A stretch of DNA of 64,000 bases, taken from Stenotrophomonas sp. BIO128-Bstrain. Lineage in GTDB: Bacteria > Pseudomonadota > Gammaproteobacteria > Xanthomonadales > Xanthomonadaceae. Shown here one piece after another: positions 9,545 to 63,356 of this stretch. Numbering within the stretch: position 1 is the stretch's first letter; each line of letters opens with the position of its first letter. A program made the translations under genes and the position numbers. The notes under the pieces were generated by a model that saw only the letters and a program-made list of their open reading frames with translations, had not been told where the DNA came from and did not search any database. The stretch is from assembly GCF_030128875.1 (NCBI RefSeq), contig NZ_CP124620.1, positions 2,914,001 through 2,978,000 on the forward strand, given 5' to 3'.

Positions 9545-9587
9545 TTACGGCCCCGTAATGGGGCCGTAACGACAGCGTCACGTTGTC
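9545..9587 (-). other. fabH-kinase intercistronic double hairpin
   Basis: A perfect 10-bp stem (TTACGGCCCC / GGGGCCGTAA, loop GTAAT) at 9545-9569 is followed by a smaller stem CGACA/TGTCG. There is no T-tract, so this is more likely an mRNA-stability or attenuation element than a full terminator. Confidence 0.5.
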
Positions 9588-9600
9588 GTAACTGACACTA

Positions 9601-52487: not shown

Positions 52488-52516
52488 TCGTCACAAACCT
52501 GTCATGAAACCGTAGT
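52488..52516 (+). promoter_or_regulatory. Pho box upstream of phoB
   Basis: TCGTCAC, AAAC, CTGTCAT, GAAA and CCGTAGT give heptamers with the 11-bp period of PhoB sites. The central one matches the CTGTCAT consensus exactly. TCTACT follows 10 bases after the second heptamer as a possible -10. This implies PhoB autoregulation. Confidence 0.75.
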
Positions 52517-52559: not shown

Positions 52560-53249
52560 GTGCAGAAACGCATCCTGATCGTCGATGACGAACCCGCGAT
52601 CCGCGAAATGGTCGCCTTCGCCCTGCGCAAGGGCGACTATGACCCGATCCATGCCGGCGACGCCCGCGAGGCGCAGACCGCCATCGCCGACCGCGTTCCG
52701 GACCTGATCCTGCTGGACTGGATGCTTCCGGGCACCAGCGGCCTGGACCTGGCCCGGCGCTGGCGCAAAGAAGCCCTCACCCGCGAGGTGCCGATCATCA
52801 TGCTGACCGCGCGCGGGGAAGAGAACGACCGCGTCGGTGGCCTGGAGGCCGGTGTCGACGACTACGTGGTCAAGCCGTTCTCGGCGCGCGAACTGCTGGC
52901 CCGCATCCGTGCGGTCATGCGCCGTGCCCGCGACGATGACGAAGACGGCAGCGTGGCGGTCGGCACGATCCGCATCGACGGCGCCGCGCACCGCGTCTTC
53001 GCCGGCGACCAGCCGGTGCCGATCGGTCCGACCGAATACCGGCTGCTGCATTTCTTCATGACCCACCCTGAGCGCGTGTACACCCGTGCCCAGCTGCTGG
53101 ATCACGTGTGGGGCGGCAGCGTGTACGTGGAGGAGCGCACCATCGATGTGCACATCCGCCGCCTGCGCAAGACGCTGGAGCCGTTCGGCGCGGAGAACAT
53201 GGTGCAGACGGTGCGCGGCGCCGGCTACCGGTTCTCGACCTCGACCTGA
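52560..53249 (+). CDS. phoB: phosphate regulon response regulator PhoB
   Basis: PhoB activates phosphate-starvation genes after phosphorylation by PhoR. GTG 52560 gives 229 residues: a receiver domain with Asp53 (LLDWMLPG), the conserved LTARG and KPFSAREL, and an OmpR-type winged helix with the recognition helix in VYVEERTIDVHIRRLRKTL. A methionine 37 codons upstream gives an N-terminus no family member has. phoR follows after 98 bases. A Pho box lies upstream. Confidence 0.95.
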   Translation: MQKRILIVDDEPAIREMVAFALRKGDYDPIHAGDAREAQTAIADRVPDLILLDWMLPGTSGLDLARRWRKEALTREVPIIMLTARGEENDRVGGLEAGVDDYVVKPFSARELLARIRAVMRRARDDDEDGSVAVGTIRIDGAAHRVFAGDQPVPIGPTEYRLLHFFMTHPERVYTRAQLLDHVWGGSVYVEERTIDVHIRRLRKTLEPFGAENMVQTVRGAGYRFSTST

Positions 53250-53347: not shown

Positions 53348-54684
<1,337 letters not shown>

Positions 54685-54688
<4 letters not shown>

Positions 54689-56766
54689 GTACTCCTGTTC
54701 CCGTCGCCGTACCCGTGGACGGCGATCCGCTGCGCGACCCGGCGCTGTACATCAACCGTGAACTGTCGCAGCTGGATTTCAATTTCCGCGTGCTGGCCCA
54801 GGCCATGGACCCGCAGGTGCCGCTGCTGGAGCGCCTGCGCTTCATGTGCATCTCCTGCACCAACCTGGACGAGTTCTTCGAGATCCGCGCCGCCGCCGTG
54901 CGCCATGCGCAGGAGTTCGGCCTGCCGCCGGCGCCGGATGGCATGACGCCGCAGGCGATCCTCAATGCGATCCACGACCGCGCCGCACAGCTGGTGGACC
55001 AGCAGTACCGCTGCTGGAACGAAACGCTGCGCCCGGCGCTGCACGAGGCAGGCATCGACGTACTCGGCCGGCACTCCTGGAACCACCGGCAGAAACGCTG
55101 GCTGCGCGCGTATTTCCGCAACGAGATCATGCCGGTGCTGTCCCCGCTCGGCCTGGATCCCTCGCACCCGTTCCCGAAGATCCTCAACAAATCGCTGAAC
55201 ATCGTGGTGGTGCTCAAGGGCACCGACGCGTTTGGCCGCGCCGGGCACCTGGCGATCGTGCGTGCACCGCGCTCGCTGCCGCGCATCATCCAGCTGCCGG
55301 AGCAACTCGGCGGCCCGCAGACCTTCGTGTTCCTGTCCTCGGTGCTGTCGACCTTCGTCGATGAGATGTTCCCGGGCATGGAAGTCCAGGGGGCCTACCA
55401 GTTCCGCGTGACCCGCAATTCCGAGCTGGTGGTGGACGAGGAAGAGGTCGAGAACCTCGCCCTGGCGTTGCGCGATGAACTGGTCGACCGTGGCTACCGC
55501 CCGGCAGTCCGGCTGGAGATCGCGCAGGACTGCCCGCGCGACATCGTGCGCACCCTGCTGCAGAACTTCGGGCTGACCGAAAACGCGGTCTACCGTATCG
55601 ACGGCCCGGTCAACCTCAACCGCGTGATCCAGCTGTACGACGTGATCCAGCGGCCGGAACTGAAGTACCCCGCCCTGAGCCCGCGCACCCTGCGCGACAG
55701 CGACGGGATCTTCGAGATCGTCGCGCGCCGGGACGTGCTGCTGCACCATCCCTTCGATGCGTTCACCGCGGTGCTGGATGTGATCAAGCAGGCCGCCGTC
55801 GACCCCAACGTGCTGGCGATCAAGCAGACCCTGTACCGCACCGGCAAGGACTCGCTGATCGTGGACGCGCTGATCCAGGCGGCCCGCAACGGCAAGGACG
55901 TCACCGTGGTGGTCGAGCTGCGCGCGCGCTTCGATGAGGAGGCCAACCTCGGCCTCGCCGACCGTCTGCAGGAAGCCGGCGTGCAGGTCGTCTACGGCGT
56001 GGTCGGGTTCAAGACCCACGCCAAGATGCTGCTGATCGTGCGCCGCGAAGGCCGCAAGCTGCGCCGCTATGTCCACCTGGGTACCGGCAACTATCACAGC
56101 GGCACCGCACGCGCGTATACCGACCTGAGCCTGATCACCGCCGATGCGGATATCGGCAACGATGTGCACCTGCTGTTCCAGCAGCTGTCCGGGCTGGCCC
56201 CGCGGATGAAGCTCAAGCGCCTGCTGCAGTCGCCCTTCACCCTGCACCCGGGCCTGCTGCAGCGGATCGAGCGCGAAACGCGGCTGGCGGCCAGCGGGCG
56301 CCCCGGGCGGATCATCGCCAAGATGAACGCCCTCAACGAACCGCAGATGATCCGCGCGCTGTATGCCGCTTCGCAGGCCGGCGTGCAGATCGACCTGATC
56401 GTGCGCGGCGCCTGCACCCTGCGCCCCGGGGTGCCCGGCGTCTCGGACAACATCCGGGTGCGCTCGATCGTCGGCCGTTTCCTGGAGCACAGCCGGGTCT
56501 ACTGGTTCGGCAATGACGGCGCCTCGGAGCTGTTCTGCGCCAGCGCGGACTGGCTGGAACGCAACCTGCTGCGCCGGGTCGAGACCTGTTTCCCGATCCT
56601 GGACCCGGAGCTGGCGCGCAAGGTCTACCGCGATGTGCTGCAGAACTACCTCGACGACAACCTCAACGCCTGGGAGCTGCAGGCCGACGGCAGCTACATC
56701 AAGTGCACGCCGGGCCATGACGAGCCGCCGCATGCGGCGCAGATGGCCTTGCTGCAGGGTCTGTAG
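54685..56766 (+). CDS. ppk1: polyphosphate kinase 1
   Basis: PPK1 reversibly makes polyphosphate from ATP. The 693-residue protein has the N-terminal YINRELSQLDFNFRVL, the phosphorylated histidine in GFKTHAKMLLI, YVHLGTGNYHSGTARAYTDLSL, and the second conserved histidine in VYWFGNDGASELFCASADW (read in blocks). Coupling to phoR by ATGA overlap ties polyphosphate synthesis to phosphate sensing. Its TAG stop is part of a SMAG repeat. Confidence 0.96.
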
Positions 56767-56888: not shown

Positions 56889-58415
56889 ATGCCGCATACC
56901 TCCACGACACCGCCCGCCCTGCAGGATGGCGACCTGCTCGCCGCCATCGACCTGGGATCCAACAGCTTCCACATGGTCATCGCGCGATACACCCTCGGGC
57001 AGTTGCGTGTGGTCGACCGCCTGCGCGAGACCGTACGCATGGCCGACGGCCTGGATGGCAAGGGCGGCCTGTCCGCCGAAGCCCGCCAGCGCGCGCTGGA
57101 ATGCCTGGCCCGGTTCGGCCAGCGCATCCGCGCGATCCCCTCGGTGCGGGTCCGCGCCCTGGCCACCAATACGGTCCGCCAGCTGCGCTCGCCGCAGGCC
57201 TTCCTGATGCCGGCCGAAACCGCGCTCGGGCATGCCATCGAAGTGGTCAGCGGCCGCGAGGAGGCCCGCCTGATCTACCTGGGCGTGGCCCATGCGCAGC
57301 CGCCCAAGCCGGACCAGCGCCGGCTGGTGATCGACATCGGTGGCGGCTCCACGGAGTTCATCATCGGCCAGGGCATGCAGACCCTGGAGCGCGAAAGCCT
57401 GCAGGCCGGCTGCATCGCCAGCACGCGGCGCTTCTTCCCCGGCGGCAAGCTGAGCAAGAAGCGCTGGAAGGACGCACTGACCGAGATCGGCGCGGAGTTC
57501 CAGCAGTTCGCCAACAAGTACCGCGCGCTGGGCTGGCACGAAGCGCTGGGCTCGTCGGGCACGCACAAGGCGATCAGCGAAATCTGCGCCACCATGAAGC
57601 TCAGCAAGGGCGCGATCACCGCCGAGGCCTTGCCGCAGCTGCGCGATGAGCTGCTCAAGGCCAAGCGCATCGAAGACATCAATCTGCCGGGGCTGTCCGC
57701 GGATCGCCGCCCGATCATCGCCGGCGGCATCCTGGTGCTCGAGGCGGCCTTCCAGGCGCTGGGGCTGCAGAAGCTGCTGGTGAGCAAGGCGGCGATGCGC
57801 GAAGGCATCCTGTACGACATCCTCGGCCGCGCCAGCGAGAACGACCTGCGCGACGAGTCGGTCGCGGCCCTGACCCAGCGCTACGGCATCGATACCGTCC
57901 AGGCCGATCGCGTGGAGAACACCGCGATGAACCTGCTGGCCCAGGTCGAGGAAAGCTGGCAGCTGGACCCGGACGATGCGCGCATGCTCGGCTGGTCCGC
58001 GCGCCTGCACGAGCTTGGCCTGATGATCGCGCACAGCGGTTACCACGTGCATGGCAGCTACGTGCTGGAGAACTCGGACATCGCCGGCTTCTCGCGGCAG
58101 GAACAGCAGCTGCTCGCCGCGCTCGTGCGCAGCCATCGCCGCAATATTTCCAAGTCCGCCTTCGATGCGCTGCCCGAGCGTCTGCTGCAACCGGCACGGC
58201 GCATGACCGCCCTGTTGCGCCTGGCAGTGCTGCTCAACCGCGCGCACGAAGACACGCCGATGCCGAAGCTGGAATTGACCGCCGAGGACGCGCGCCTGTC
58301 GTTGATCCTGCCGCAGGCGTACATCGATGCGCGTCCGCTGCTGCGTGCGGACCTGATCGGGGAAACCGAAGGCATGGCCGGGCTCGGTGTGCAGTTCCGC
58401 CCCTTTGTTGCCTGA
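56889..58415 (+). CDS. ppx: exopolyphosphatase
   Basis: Ppx/GppA proteins release phosphate from polyphosphate. The 508-residue protein has the actin-like ATPase motifs AAIDLGSNSFHMVIAR and VIDIGGGSTEFIIG, ATNTVRQ, and SGREEARLIYLG, and a C-terminal HD-like domain (ARLHELGLMIAHSGYHVHGSYVLEN, read in blocks). It is 122 bases after ppk1, so the cell regulates synthesis and breakdown from one locus. ATG 56889 gives the usual short N-terminus. Confidence 0.95.
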   Translation: MPHTSTTPPALQDGDLLAAIDLGSNSFHMVIARYTLGQLRVVDRLRETVRMADGLDGKGGLSAEARQRALECLARFGQRIRAIPSVRVRALATNTVRQLRSPQAFLMPAETALGHAIEVVSGREEARLIYLGVAHAQPPKPDQRRLVIDIGGGSTEFIIGQGMQTLERESLQAGCIASTRRFFPGGKLSKKRWKDALTEIGAEFQQFANKYRALGWHEALGSSGTHKAISEICATMKLSKGAITAEALPQLRDELLKAKRIEDINLPGLSADRRPIIAGGILVLEAAFQALGLQKLLVSKAAMREGILYDILGRASENDLRDESVAALTQRYGIDTVQADRVENTAMNLLAQVEESWQLDPDDARMLGWSARLHELGLMIAHSGYHVHGSYVLENSDIAGFSRQEQQLLAALVRSHRRNISKSAFDALPERLLQPARRMTALLRLAVLLNRAHEDTPMPKLELTAEDARLSLILPQAYIDARPLLRADLIGETEGMAGLGVQFRPFVA

Positions 58416-58522: not shown

Positions 58523-58645
58523 GAACGATTAACGAATCGATCTACTCTCGGGACACCGGCCTTCATTGGGCTGGATTTTTGAAGAAGGCGGTACTTGGGT
58601 CCGCCGACTTCTTGGACGTCGTTCCGATTAGAGAGAGAGTCGATC

Positions 58646-61555
58646 ATGTCTTCATCCACTACCCCGCTGGGGCAGGCGATCCGCCTGGCCCTGGTCGCCG
58701 GCACCGCTGGCCTGGCTTCCACCGCCGTCCTCGCCCAGGACGCCACCCCGACCACCCTGGACCGCATCGAGATCACCGGCTCGCGCATCCGCCAGGTCGA
58801 TGTCGAGTCCGCCCAGCCGGTGCTCGCGATCAGCCGCGCCGACATCGAGCGGCAGGGCTTCAGTTCAGTTGCCGACATCCTGCAGAACCTGACCGCGGTC
58901 GGCAGCCCGGCGCTGAGCCGCTCCAACGTGCTCGCTGCCGGCGAAAATGCCGGCGGCACCTACATCGACATGCGCAACCTGGGCGCGCAACGCACTCTGG
59001 TGCTGATCAACGGCAAGCGTCTGGGCATCAATACCGGCGGCTACCAGGACATCTCCAGCGTGCCGGTCTCGGCGATCGAACGCATGGAGGTGCTGAAGGA
59101 TGGCGCCTCGGCGATCTATGGCTCGGACGCCATGGCCGGCGTGATCAACATCATCACCCGCAGCAACGTCAGCGGCGTGACCGCCAACGTCTACCAGGGC
59201 CAGTACAGCGAGGGTGATGGCGCGCGCACCAGTGTCGATGTGGTGGCCGGCTGGTCCAACGACCGCGCCTCGTTGACCTTCTCGGCCGAGCACACCGAAG
59301 AGAAGGGCGTCTGGGCACGCAACCGCTGGTTCAGCGAATTCCCGAACACCACCCGCCACCCCGGCGACAACTGGACCCAGCTCAGCCAGTGGGGCCAGAT
59401 CACTGGCCTGAGGGGCCCGGGCTGCACCGCCGCGGCGGGCTGCAATTATTCGCTGGACCGCGGCGCCGACCCGACCAACCCGGCCAACTACCATCTCAGC
59501 GATCTGACCCCGTTCACCGGTGATGTCAGCAACGCACAGGAGCAGATGCACCTGATCTCGCCGCTCAAGCGCGATTCGCTGTTCCTCGATGGCCGCCTGG
59601 ACCTGACCGATGACATCCGCCTGACCACCCAGCTGGGCTACAACAAGCGCACCTCCACGCGCCAGGTGGCCGGCTATCCGCTGCAGTCCGCCACCGCCGG
59701 TATCGGGCGGATGTCGGCCGACAGCTGGTTCAATCCGTTCGGCAACCACCACGGCTATGACACCCCCACCGACATCGCCTGGAACCGCCGCGCCTGGGAG
59801 GTTCCGCGGGTCAGCACCAGCGAGCTGACCACCTGGCGCGCCGTTGCCGCGCTGGAAGGCAGCTTCGAGGTGGGCGAGCGGTACTTCGATTGGGAAGTGG
59901 GCTACCAGTACAACCGCAGCGAACTGCTGCAGCGGTCGACCGGCAATCTGCACAAGGAACGGGTCAAGAACGCGGTCGGCCCGTCGTATTACAACGAGGC
60001 CACCGGCAAGGTGGAATGTGGCGTCCCGGGCGCACCGATCGCGGGCTGCATGCCGTGGAACCCGCTGGCGCCGTATGGCAGCAACGACCCCAATGGGCTG
60101 AGCGGCAACCAGGCCCTGATCGACCATCTGTTCCCGCCGGAAATCACGCGCGGCAAGACCACCACCCGCAATGCGTTCGCCAGCATCGCCGGTACGGTGA
60201 TGACCCTGCCGGCCGGTGATCTGGGCTTCGCCTTCGGCGTGGAAACGCGCAAGGAGGCCGGTGAGTTCATCCCCGATGCGCTGGCCCAGAGCGGTGCCAC
60301 CACCAACCTGGCCGCCGGCCCGACCGGGGGCGGCTACAAGGTCAATGAGGCCTACCTGGAGCTGAGCGTGCCGATCCTGGCCGACCTGCCGGGTGCGCGC
60401 GAGCTGAGCCTGAGCGCCGCCACCCGCCACTCGGACTACAGCACCTTCGGCACCACCCTCAACAGCAAGTTCGGCTTCAAGTGGAAGCCGATCGAGCAGT
60501 TGCTGGTGCGCGGCACGTGGGCGCAGGGCTTCCGCGCGCCGACCATCTCCGATCTGTATGGCGGCGGTTCGGAAACCTTCACCACCGGCTACCGTGACCC
60601 CTGCGACACCGTCTACGGGGCCTCGGCCAGCAGTGCCGAGGTGCGCGCCCGGTGCGCCGCCGACATCGCCAATGCCGACGCCTACCGCCAGCTGCGCCAG
60701 GGCGGCGTGCCGATCACCAGCAGCAGCGACCAGACCCCGGTGCCGTTCACCAACGGCTCCAACCCTGACCTGCAGCCGGAAACCTCGACCAGCCGCACGC
60801 TGGGCCTGGTCTGGAGCCCGTCCTTCGTGCCCCACCTCAACGTGGCGCTGGACTGGTGGAAGGTCCGCATCGACAACACCATCGTCAACGATCACCCCAA
60901 CGACATGCTGCGCGACTGCTATGAGCAGGGCATCACCTCGCGCTGCAGCGGCTTCACCCGCGACCCGGTCACCGGCATCGTGGACCAGTTGACGTACGGC
61001 AGGCGCAACTCCGGTTTCCTGGAAACCGAAGGTTACGACCTGGAGCTGAGCCACCACCTGGATACCCGCCATGGCAAGTTGAGCACCGGGTGGACGACGA
61101 CCTATGTCAGTTCCTACCTCGAGCGCACCACCAACGACGCTGACGTGGTGCCCGAAACGAAAAACGGCATCGGCAGCGGCTTCCGCGTGCGCTCCAACCT
61201 GACCCTGGGCTGGGACGTGGGCAACTTCGGCGCCAGCTGGACCGCCCGCTACTACTCCGGCGTCAAGGAACGCTGCATCAATGCACGAGCCCGACCGGAC
61301 GAGTGCTCCGACCCCGGCGTGCAGGCCCCGTGGTATGCCGGCTCGCGTGACTACAACGAGCGCGGCTCGGTCACCTTCCACGACGTGCAGTTCCGCTACT
61401 CCCTGCCTTGGGACGCGACCGTCTCGGTCGGTGCCAACAACGTGTTCGAGAAGTACGGCCCGATCATGTACACCCAGCCGAACTCGGCCTTCTCGTACTA
61501 CGGCGGTTACGACATCGGCCGCTTCCTGTACATGAAGTACCAGCAGCGTTTCTGA
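58646..61555 (+). CDS. TonB-dependent outer-membrane receptor
   Basis: The 969-residue protein has a signal peptide (cleavage near VLAQD), a TonB-box-like start (LDRIEITGSRIRQ), a plug domain with FSSVADILQNL and GAQRTLVLINGKRLG ... IERMEVLKDGASAIYGSDAMAGVINIITR, and a 22-strand barrel ending in the sorting residue Phe. Cysteine pairs (GCTAAAGC, near residues 275-285) mark external loops. The ligand is unknown. The position after phoBR-ppk1-ppx and a weak Pho box suggest phosphate-linked uptake. Confidence 0.92.
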   Translation: MSSSTTPLGQAIRLALVAGTAGLASTAVLAQDATPTTLDRIEITGSRIRQVDVESAQPVLAISRADIERQGFSSVADILQNLTAVGSPALSRSNVLAAGENAGGTYIDMRNLGAQRTLVLINGKRLGINTGGYQDISSVPVSAIERMEVLKDGASAIYGSDAMAGVINIITRSNVSGVTANVYQGQYSEGDGARTSVDVVAGWSNDRASLTFSAEHTEEKGVWARNRWFSEFPNTTRHPGDNWTQLSQWGQITGLRGPGCTAAAGCNYSLDRGADPTNPANYHLSDLTPFTGDVSNAQEQMHLISPLKRDSLFLDGRLDLTDDIRLTTQLGYNKRTSTRQVAGYPLQSATAGIGRMSADSWFNPFGNHHGYDTPTDIAWNRRAWEVPRVSTSELTTWRAVAALEGSFEVGERYFDWEVGYQYNRSELLQRSTGNLHKERVKNAVGPSYYNEATGKVECGVPGAPIAGCMPWNPLAPYGSNDPNGLSGNQALIDHLFPPEITRGKTTTRNAFASIAGTVMTLPAGDLGFAFGVETRKEAGEFIPDALAQSGATTNLAAGPTGGGYKVNEAYLELSVPILADLPGARELSLSAATRHSDYSTFGTTLNSKFGFKWKPIEQLLVRGTWAQGFRAPTISDLYGGGSETFTTGYRDPCDTVYGASASSAEVRARCAADIANADAYRQLRQGGVPITSSSDQTPVPFTNGSNPDLQPETSTSRTLGLVWSPSFVPHLNVALDWWKVRIDNTIVNDHPNDMLRDCYEQGITSRCSGFTRDPVTGIVDQLTYGRRNSGFLETEGYDLELSHHLDTRHGKLSTGWTTTYVSSYLERTTNDADVVPETKNGIGSGFRVRSNLTLGWDVGNFGASWTARYYSGVKERCINARARPDECSDPGVQAPWYAGSRDYNERGSVTFHDVQFRYSLPWDATVSVGANNVFEKYGPIMYTQPNSAFSYYGGYDIGRFLYMKYQQRF

Positions 61556-61581
61556 TCGCCGCCCGGTAACCTCGCTCGATC

Positions 61582-61609
61582 ACCACGGCCCTTCGGGGCC
61601 GTGGTGTTT
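61582..61609 (+). terminator. terminator after the TonB-dependent receptor gene
   Basis: CCACGGCCC, TTCG, GGGCCGTGG and TGTTTTT form a strong stem-loop with a T-tract. Confidence 0.9.
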
Positions 61610-61623
61610 TTCTGCCGGCGTGC

Positions 61624-61652
61624 GCGTCATGCCGGCGTCATACGGCGGTCAT
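61624..61652 (+). promoter_or_regulatory. triple Pho-box-like repeat upstream of the GT/PAP2 operon
   Basis: GCGTCAT (61624-61630), GCGTCAT (61635-61641) and CGGTCAT (61646-61652) repeat with an exact 11-bp period and 4-base spacers, the geometry of PhoB binding. The core GTCAT is kept in all three. The last heptamer ends 50 bases before the ATG. Confidence 0.65.
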
Positions 61653-61702
61653 GTCGGCTACATCGCCCGGCCCCAGCATGCGTGGCATACCGGAGGCCCG
61701 CC

Positions 61703-62842
61703 ATGCGCTATGCCATCGTCACCGAAACCTATCCCCCGGAAGTCAACGGCGTCGCCCTGACCGTGCAGGGCCTGGAACTGGGGCTGCGTGCCGCCGGCCA
61801 CCAGGTGGATCTGGTCCGGCCCCGGCAACCGTCCGATGTGGACGCCGCCGAAGGCACCGTCCTGGTCACCGGCGCCAACCTGCCGCGCTACCCCGGCCTG
61901 CGCTTCGGCCTGCCCGCGCCCGCCCGTTTGAGCCGCCAGTGGCAGCAGCAGCGGCCGGACGCGATCTACATCGCCACGGAAGGCCCACTGGGCTGGTCGG
62001 CACTGCGCACCGCGCGACGCCTCGGCATTCCGGTCGCGACCGGCTTCCATACCCGCTTTGACGAGTACCTGCCCGACTACGGCGTGGCCTGGCTGCAGGC
62101 CGCCGCGCTGCGCTGGATGCGCCGCTTCCACAACCAGGCCGATGCGACGCTGGTGCCGACCCATGAGCTGCAGCAGTTCCTCGGCGAACAGGGCTTCGAC
62201 CGCGTCCGTCTGCTGGCGCGCGCGGTGGACAGCAGCCAGTTCGAACCCGAGCGGCGCGACCCGGCGCTGCGCGAGGAATGGGGCATCGACGGCAACGGAT
62301 TCGCGGCGATCCATGTCGGCCGCATCGCCCCGGAGAAGAATCTCGGGCTGGCGGTCAAAGCGTTCCGCCGCCTGCAGCAGGTACGCCCGAAGGCGCGCTT
62401 CATCTTCGTCGGCGATGGCCCAGCGCGCGCCAGGCTGGCCCACGACAACCCGGACTTCATCTTCTGCGGCGTGCAGCGCGGCGACGCGCTGGCGCGGCAT
62501 TTCGCCAGCGGCGATCTGTTCCTGTTCCCCAGCCGCAGCGAGACCTTCGGCAACGTGACCCTTGAAGCCATGGCCAGTGGACTGGCCACGGTGGCCTTCG
62601 ACTACGGCGCCGCCCGCGAATACCTGCGTACCGATGAGAACGGCATCGCCGTGAATGACGACAGCGAGTTTGTGACCGCCGCCGTGCAGCTGGCCGGCGA
62701 CGATACGTTGCGCCACCGGCTCGGCCGGAATGCCGCCACGGCGATGAAGCGCCTGCATCCGCAGCACGTGGTCGCCGAGTTCGATGCGCTGCTCGCTGAA
62801 CTGGCCCACGCCCGGAGGGCACATGCCGACCACGCCGCTTGA
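61703..62842 (+). CDS. GT4-type glycosyltransferase (mannosyl/sulfoquinovosyl-transferase-like)
   Basis: The 379-residue GT-B enzyme has the N-terminal acceptor motif ETYPPEVNGVALTV, GFHTRFDEYLPDYG, the donor-site start HVGRIAPEKNLGL, and the C-terminal FPSRSETFGNVTLEAMASGLA with the E-x7-E pair. It resembles MgtA/SqdX transferases that glycosylate diacylglycerol or similar lipids. GGAGG precedes ATG 61703. The PAP2 gene overlaps its end by 20 bases. With the upstream heptamers this suggests phosphate-controlled glycolipid synthesis; the sugar is not known. Confidence 0.9.
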   Translation: MRYAIVTETYPPEVNGVALTVQGLELGLRAAGHQVDLVRPRQPSDVDAAEGTVLVTGANLPRYPGLRFGLPAPARLSRQWQQQRPDAIYIATEGPLGWSALRTARRLGIPVATGFHTRFDEYLPDYGVAWLQAAALRWMRRFHNQADATLVPTHELQQFLGEQGFDRVRLLARAVDSSQFEPERRDPALREEWGIDGNGFAAIHVGRIAPEKNLGLAVKAFRRLQQVRPKARFIFVGDGPARARLAHDNPDFIFCGVQRGDALARHFASGDLFLFPSRSETFGNVTLEAMASGLATVAFDYGAAREYLRTDENGIAVNDDSEFVTAAVQLAGDDTLRHRLGRNAATAMKRLHPQHVVAEFDALLAELAHARRAHADHAA

Positions 62843-63356
62843 CGCCCTGCGTGGCCGCGAAACGCGCTGGTGCCGCCGCGCCAACCACTATTGCCGGCAC
62901 CGCCGGATCCGCCATGCCTTCGCGGTGATCAGCCGCCTGGGCGATGGCGCCTTCTGGTACGCACTGATGGGTGCACTGGTGCTGCTGGATGGCTTGGATG
63001 GCCTGCGTGCCTCGCTGCACATGGCCGCCACCGGCTTGATGGCCCTGCTGCTGTACAAAGGCCTCAAACGCTGGACGCGACGCCCGCGGCCCTACGCCGC
63101 CGACCTGCGCATCCGCGCCTGGGTGGCGCCGCTGGACGAGTTCAGTTTCCCGTCCGGGCACACCCTGCACGCGGTGTCCTTCACGATCGTGGCACTGGCC
63201 TATTACCCGTGGCTGGCCCCGGTGCTGGTGCCCTTTACGATGCTGATCGGGCTGTCGCGGGTCGTGCTGGGGCTGCATTACCCCAGCGATGTGCTGGCCG
63301 CGACCGGGATTGCCGCCCTGCTGGCGGCGGCCAGCCTGCAGTGGCTGCCGCTGTAG
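62823..63356 (+). CDS. PAP2-family membrane phosphatase
   Basis: The 177-residue protein has the three phosphatase motifs [19 protein letters not shown] and [12 protein letters not shown], with about five membrane helices. PAP2 enzymes hydrolyse phosphatidate, phosphatidylglycerophosphate or undecaprenyl pyrophosphate at the membrane. ATG 62823, with a GGAGGG site, lies inside the end of the transferase gene, so the two products are made together. Phosphatidate to diacylglycerol is the reaction that would fit its partner, but the sequence does not decide this. Confidence 0.92.

Follow-up and report, generated by a model that had tools for sequence, protein, structure and literature searches.

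In the 64,000-nucleotide stretch of Stenotrophomonas sp. BIO128-Bstrain analysed here (C1:2914001-2978000 of a 4.49-Mb genome; hereafter the window), two overlapping genes encode a GT4 glycosyltransferase and a PAP2 membrane phosphatase, and both lie behind a Pho-box-like array. Based on sequence comparisons, we consider it probable that they make up a glycolipid operon under PhoB control, with PAP2 converting phosphatidate to diacylglycerol (DAG), a variant of the PlcP-Agt type of membrane lipid remodelling. PAP2 stands next to the transferase in 105 of the 106 genomes of the family that carry the transferase, and the array was recovered in 93 of the 106. The elements of the operon, all on the forward strand, are the following.

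61626..61663, +, Pho-box-like array: GTCAT at 61626, 61637 and 61648, TACAT at 61659, period 11
61674..61679, +, CAGCAT, candidate -10 element by motif reading; CAnnnT at +48 is conserved
61703..62842, +, GT4 (GT-B) glycosyltransferase, 379 amino acids, probably acting on lipids; its clade neighbours Agt and is mostly linked to PAP2
62823..63356, +, PAP2 membrane phosphatase, 177 amino acids, motifs KX6RP, PSGH and SRX5HX3D intact

The Operon and Its Promoter

An earlier note on this DNA had reported three GTCAT cores of exact 11-bp period before the transferase and a 20-base overlap between the two genes, and we recovered both features. The cores begin 77, 66 and 55 bp upstream of the transferase gene, and are followed by a fourth, weaker unit (TACAT). 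The start of the PAP2 gene lies 1120 bases beyond that of the transferase, both in the window and in locus L012. The exact 27-bp triplet pattern is present as a single copy in the genome, with about 0.001 copies expected from base composition (67% GC assumed) in the genome and 1.6e-5 in the window.

The family, taken on overall likeness to be the Xanthomonadaceae (Lysobacteraceae), was sampled with 119 genomes, 106 of them with the transferase; among the 13 without it, four (G080, G088, G094 and G114) are less than 90% complete. Within the family, co-occurrence counts refer to these 119 genomes and were made without a species tree; the co-occurrence tests are not corrected for kinship, which is to be held against our reading together with the points gathered further below. 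Arrays were scored by the three best-matching GTCAT cores spaced 11 bp apart (maximum 15) within at most 220 bp before the start codon, leaving the duplicates L115-L118 out of the upstream counts. A score of at least 11 was reached in 93 of the 106 family genomes, with 0.65 expected from shuffled sequences, so that the Pho-box promoter proposed in the earlier note is indeed kept in relatives. The same score was found in 0-7 of the 106 genomes at periods of 7-10 and 12-15 and in none of them for a control stretch inside the transferase gene. In 87 of the 93 array-bearing loci the distance from the array start to the ATG is 70-92 bp, and the averaged pattern of the 93 arrays reads GTCAY, GTCAY, GNCAY and TNCAY at 11-bp steps, with CAnnnT at +48 from the array start, a position fitting a candidate -10 element. 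A scan for the sigma-70 consensus returned no sites. Outside the family, 12 of the best 26 transferase loci have an array score of at least 11.

Control of the operon by PhoB is very likely, because the phoB and pstS genes bear the same motif. The window's own phoB gene is preceded by a similar array, and most of the 32 upstream regions of phoB examined in relatives have a comparable layout. For pstS, a score of at least 11 in the 400 bp before the matched part was found in 21 of 22 loci, among them all 20 from the genus, with 0.15 expected, and the control periods 9, 10, 12 and 13 gave 3, 0, 3 and 1 of the 22 loci. A looser motif with at most one mismatch gave 14 matches in the genome, corresponding to 11 separate sites, and the reversed control pattern gave 6 matches; besides this operon, which alone matches exactly, the 11 sites comprise phoB, a pair of pstS genes and seven further positions. 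The DNA-binding domain of the PhoB encoded here aligns with that of Escherichia coli PhoB over 90 residues free of gaps and is nearly identical from yve to lrk. In Xanthomonas citri, PstS rises 39-fold and PhoX 43-fold in low phosphate (excerpts of PMC5439949).

Two further one-mismatch sites were looked at. A GTCAT triplet at G000:C1:4180217-4180243 (reverse strand; locus L120) lies about 80 bp before the likely start of a gene for a PF00884 membrane protein, a sulfatase-fold protein and possibly a transferase of phosphoglycerol or phosphoethanolamine; enzymes of these kinds can release DAG. In the window, two overlapping matches at 9555-9592 (+) fall between fabH-like and kinase-like genes, both oppositely oriented, and are probably due to chance.

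The Phosphatase and Its Partnership with the Transferase

The phosphatase matches PF01569 with 76.7 bits. The three catalytic motifs of the window protein are complete in 125 of 128 related proteins (L115-L118, L206 and L233 excluded), the other three being short fragments; the pairing of a GT4 transferase with a PAP2 phosphatase in one operon thus holds as first described, with an intact PAP2. PAP2 lies downstream of the transferase in 20 of the best 26 transferase loci from outside the family. Across the class, PAP2 lies at most 1.5 kb from the transferase, always on the same strand, in 30 of the 48 PAP2 carriers; the adjacency check took in 32 PlcP places, all from genomes that also have PAP2. 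For the 18 remaining carriers, eight loci were read, and in six of them PAP2 stands beside a third type of GT4.

This third kind of GT4 follows PAP2 at L225:3280-4065 and in L366, L371, L374, L375, L377 and L384. The order in L225 is transferase-PAP2-second transferase.

PAP2 shares its fold and three catalytic motifs with PgpB and LpxE, but differs from them in sharing an operon, preceded by a Pho-box array, with a GT4 transferase, and its scores are below the cut-offs of both models.

The Transferase Clade

The transferase has the GT4 domains of Pfam. Its predicted structure (mean predicted local distance difference test, pLDDT, of 91) matches GT-B enzymes in general, including MshA and PimA. 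Structure was rejected as a guide to the substrates, as the folds of the transferase and of PAP2 fit many GT4 and PAP2 enzymes. Its second-ranking NCBIfam model is that of glucosyl-DAG synthase (109.1 bits against a cut-off of 400).

Phylogenetic analysis placed the transferase in a separate clade beside that of Agt and not inside it. A quick tree of 77 rows puts it in a set of 42 (support 98) adjoining 31 Agt-type rows (support 100). In a more careful tree of 54 rows, the transferase clade (24 rows, 96/83) and the Agt-type rows (15 rows, 100/100) are paired at 95/81, with the GpgS-type proteins (11 rows) outside this pair in a clade of their own; this tree is midpoint-rooted, and according to a warning from the program, the GpgS rows and one further set form long branches that meet. 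Locus L230, with its transferase at a contig end, was kept out of trees and residue counts, and four of 15 GpgS loci are not in the tree, one of them for being too short. The Agt-type rows are loci with PlcP or their close kin, characterised Agt sequences not being part of the tree, and Pseudomonas, looked for as the source of Agt1 and Agt2, was not among the best 80 loci of the contig scan. Among the 80 Agt-type loci retrieved by name, PlcP lies within the flanks in 59, in 57 of them on the same strand. The lipid-remodelling setting suggested in the earlier note is consistent with this position beside the Agt of PlcP operons, as well as with the linkage of the transferase to PlcP in other genomes.

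PlcP in the Own Genome and in Relatives

The earlier note had also proposed that the pair replaces PlcP. In the genome under study this part did not stand: a gene for a PlcP-type metallophosphoesterase is present at C1:3198126-3198965, which rejects the absence of PlcP, and carries an array of its own (GTCAC N6 GTCGT N6 GCCAT N6 GTCGT) 90 bp before the chosen start codon, so PAP2 is no simple replacement of PlcP here. The gene is identified by its similarity to PlcP-type genes beside Agt, its best NCBIfam match being below the cut-off and no curated PlcP model matching. No transferase was seen among the open reading frames (ORFs) that flank it. The proposal is a better match for those family genomes, 39 of the 106 with the transferase, that show no PlcP (threshold for presence, E 1e-20).

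PlcP was found in 67 of the 119 family genomes. All 67 belong to the 106 with the transferase, and the 13 lacking the transferase gave no PlcP. Seven of these PlcP copies are distant, with 41-46% identity. Across the class, PlcP is present in 39 of 48 genomes with the transferase versus 50 of 273 others (Fisher 3e-17, likewise not kinship-corrected). In two loci, both from one other family of the class, the order is transferase-PlcP-PAP2 (L222:1495-4131 and L226, the latter cut by the contig end), and in L211 PlcP is divergent from transferase-PAP2.

The strongest alternative is the standard PlcP-fed remodelling, in which PlcP gives DAG, the transferase adds the sugar and PAP2 has some other Pho-regulated job, for example the recovery of phosphate from undecaprenyl diphosphate or phosphatidylglycerophosphate. 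We regard it as possible though rather unlikely. Against it stand the 39 genomes with the transferase and without PlcP, 30 of which have an array score of at least 11 (63 of 67 among those with PlcP). Moreover, to account for where PlcP occurs, no fewer than 23 changes are needed on the tree of the 106 transferases (as a gene tree, uncertain in itself), and this PAP2 subfamily adjoins several kinds of GT4 transferase.

Compared with the PlcP-Agt remodelling of Agrobacterium tumefaciens, SAR11, Phaeobacter and Pseudomonas aeruginosa, the system of the window has in common a Pho-box promoter, a GT4 lipid transferase, DAG as the presumed acceptor and a PlcP in the genome. It differs in that the transferase is in an operon with PAP2 and not with PlcP, in the lack of a detectable PlcP from the 39 genomes, and in two positions of the transferase, with Glu for the catalytic Asp of Agt and, throughout nearly all of the family, Pro for the Trp of the DAG site.

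Two expectations about plcP loci were discarded. An own array is not general to plcP, a score of at least 11 being found in 2 of the 30 loci examined among the 67 PlcP genomes. Neither does OlsF-dependent ornithine lipid synthesis accompany the pair here, as the best OlsF score in the own genome is 19 bits against a cut-off of 620. An OlsF-like gene precedes plcP in eight of ten plcP loci read in relatives. In one congener (L177:2-1507), OlsF lies directly before plcP with 658 bits against the same cut-off of 620, and this was the sole such locus scanned.

Points against the Proposed Reading

Several results weigh against a PAP2-fed DAG glycosyltransferase under PhoB. On the side of the phosphatase, the nearest solved fold of PAP2 is the lipid A phosphatase LpxE, PAP2 enzymes act on several lipid substrates, and 5 of 36 transferase genomes of the class are without this PAP2. 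At the promoter, 13 of the 106 family genomes score below 11, nine of them among the 39 without PlcP, and the spacers of the array are GC-rich at the operon and A-rich at phoB.

The remaining points concern residues. Mutants of GTcp, the Agt-type enzyme of SAR11, showed that His104, Asp256, Arg163, Trp320 and several Gly are required, and Asp256Glu costs more than 90% of the activity (excerpts of PMC8231724). The transferase keeps the His, Arg and Gly residues of GTcp, the shared Arg and Gly speaking for a lipid role; it has Glu for Asp and Pro for Trp, and hence does not have the His-Asp catalytic dyad of Agt. Glu occupies the Asp256 position in 104 of the 106 family members and, outside the family, in 24 of the 25 members of the clade, as opposed to Asp in 31 of 31 Agt-type rows. 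This point is softened by MshA and all 11 GpgS rows, which likewise have Glu there. Arg is found at the Arg163 position in 106 of 106 family members. At the Trp320 position, that of the DAG site, the family has Pro in 105 of 106 members and His in one; beyond the family, 24 of 25 clade members retain Trp. By the Glu and Pro together the transferase is not an Agt. It may nevertheless work like one, despite the residue changes. To judge from the alignment, its acceptor site is changed within the family, and owing to the Pro the acceptor may differ.

Lipid A, Phosphatidylglycerol and Other Regulators

The likeness of PAP2 to LpxE raises a second alternative, economy of phosphate in lipid A and lipopolysaccharide, with PAP2 stripping a phosphate from lipid A and the transferase putting a sugar in its place. 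This is unlikely. The likeness is a match of fold alone, the LpxE model of NCBIfam giving 16.6 bits against a cut-off of 177; an lpxH-like neighbour is present in 19 of 106 family loci, all of nearer relatives (for 30 loci the sequence ends 1.5 kb beyond the transferase); and the transferase clade neighbours that of Agt, with PlcP adjacent in some of the other genomes.

Somewhat less likely still is a transferase that acts in the manner of GpgS on phosphatidylglycerol, or on polyprenyl phosphate, instead of DAG. GpgS (NF053787), the N-acetylglucosaminyl-phosphatidylglycerol synthase of the P. aeruginosa gpgSDF genes, is also a GT4 lipid transferase and gave the top match among the curated NCBIfam models (141.8 bits), and the Pro at the DAG-site Trp favours another acceptor as well. 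The score is nevertheless far under the cut-off of 480, and the GpgS-type proteins, which are without the Arg and mostly without the second and third Gly, form a clade apart. Six of the 11 genomes with a GpgS above the cut-off carry this transferase too. For these reasons (score, separate clade and co-occurrence with true GpgS) we rejected the identity of the transferase with GpgS. In addition, the gene neighbours differ, being PAP2, a metallophosphoesterase and the TonB receptor in the window and a deacetylase and a flippase in gpgSDF, and a phospholipid product would save no phosphate.

That the array serves a different regulator of the OmpR type whose sites also have an 11-bp period, for instance CreB (site TTCAC N6 TTCAC), and that the operon does not respond to phosphate, is very improbable. 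The GC-rich spacers and the TNCAY of the fourth unit would suit it, but the core TTCAC scores at least 12 in 1 of 106 genomes versus 76 of 106 for GTCAT, and the GTCAY core occurs with the same period at the phoB and pstS genes. Of the 76 family loci whose flanks extend about 9 kb, 34 have phoB within that distance upstream, in the same orientation.

Proposed Mechanism and Significance

From these patterns we infer PhoB binding as well as the acceptor, the donor, the substrate of PAP2 and the product. In phosphate shortage, PhoB would bind the 11-bp array and switch on the GT4 transferase and PAP2. PAP2 would dephosphorylate newly made phosphatidate, together with DAG that has been re-phosphorylated by DgkA, and thus deliver DAG, to which the transferase would attach the sugar of a nucleotide sugar, UDP-glucose and UDP-glucuronate being the likeliest donors. 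The product would be a phosphorus-free glycolipid substituting for phospholipid. Where PlcP is present, as in the genome studied here, it would supply the same step with DAG from old phospholipids, and in the genomes that lack PlcP the phosphatase would be the dedicated source of DAG. PAP2 would also undo the action of DAG kinase, which would explain why it is retained beside PlcP. A flow from phosphatidate through DAG to glycolipid, as proposed here, is also found in the routes of chloroplasts and cyanobacteria, which combine a phosphatidate phosphatase with a DAG glycosyltransferase; those routes are constitutive, use other transferases and are not known to involve a PhoB operon.

A wider version of this proposal can be put forward tentatively, and we hold it to be somewhat short of probable. 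Transferase and PAP2 may represent the core unit of a PlcP-independent, PhoB-type remodelling across the family and in other gammaproteobacteria, which diverts new phosphatidate to glycolipid rather than recycling old phospholipid. PlcP would then be an optional addition, gained and lost many times, and the changed acceptor site of the family hints at a different glycolipid.

Phosphate-saving lipid remodelling in bacteria has so far been framed around PlcP, which is described with Agt or other lipid transferases (excerpts of PMC8528852, PMC4796936, PMC8231724, PMC6445935 and PMC12713373). P. aeruginosa plcP mutants retain some glucuronosyl-DAG, and another supply of DAG was proposed by the authors (excerpts of PMC8528852). 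The transferase-PAP2 operon, present in 105 of 106 transferase-bearing family genomes, is a concrete candidate for such a supply. PAP2 is not named in a DAG-supplying role in the excerpts of the five reports just cited, and the text of PMC9239053 gave no term match. Among the literature matches listed (titles and beginnings of abstracts), none described a phosphatase partner in glycolipid remodelling, nor, among the open-licence ones listed for Stenotrophomonas, Xanthomonas and Lysobacter, such a system. If the proposal is true, glycolipids are predicted in a lineage for which these matches hold no report of them.

Genomic Context

The operon was described in the earlier note as placed after phoB-phoR-ppk1-ppx. 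We confirmed this order, with a TonB-dependent receptor gene and a hairpin intervening between ppx and the array, followed by the transferase and PAP2. The neighbouring features are the following.

52490..52516, +, Pho-box-like array before phoB, GTCAC N6 GTCAT N6 GTAGT (similar arrays precede phoB in relatives)
52560..53249, +, phoB, response regulator gene with GTG start; the DNA-binding domain closely resembles that of E. coli PhoB
53348..54688, +, phoR sensor kinase (PF11808)
54685..56766, +, ppk1 polyphosphate kinase
56889..58415, +, ppx exopolyphosphatase
58595-61555, TonB-dependent receptor ORF between ppx and the transferase
61581..61606, +, terminator-like hairpin with T tail, 3' of the receptor gene (1 found versus 0.7 expected in shuffles)

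Since the receptor gene and the terminator-like hairpin separate ppx from the transferase, the operon seems to be transcribed from a promoter of its own. Among the 106 family loci, 66 have ppx upstream in the same orientation. The TonB-dependent receptor was found in 3 of the 106, namely the own genome and two congeners (L010 and L011), and in a third congener (L014) ppx lies directly before the operon.
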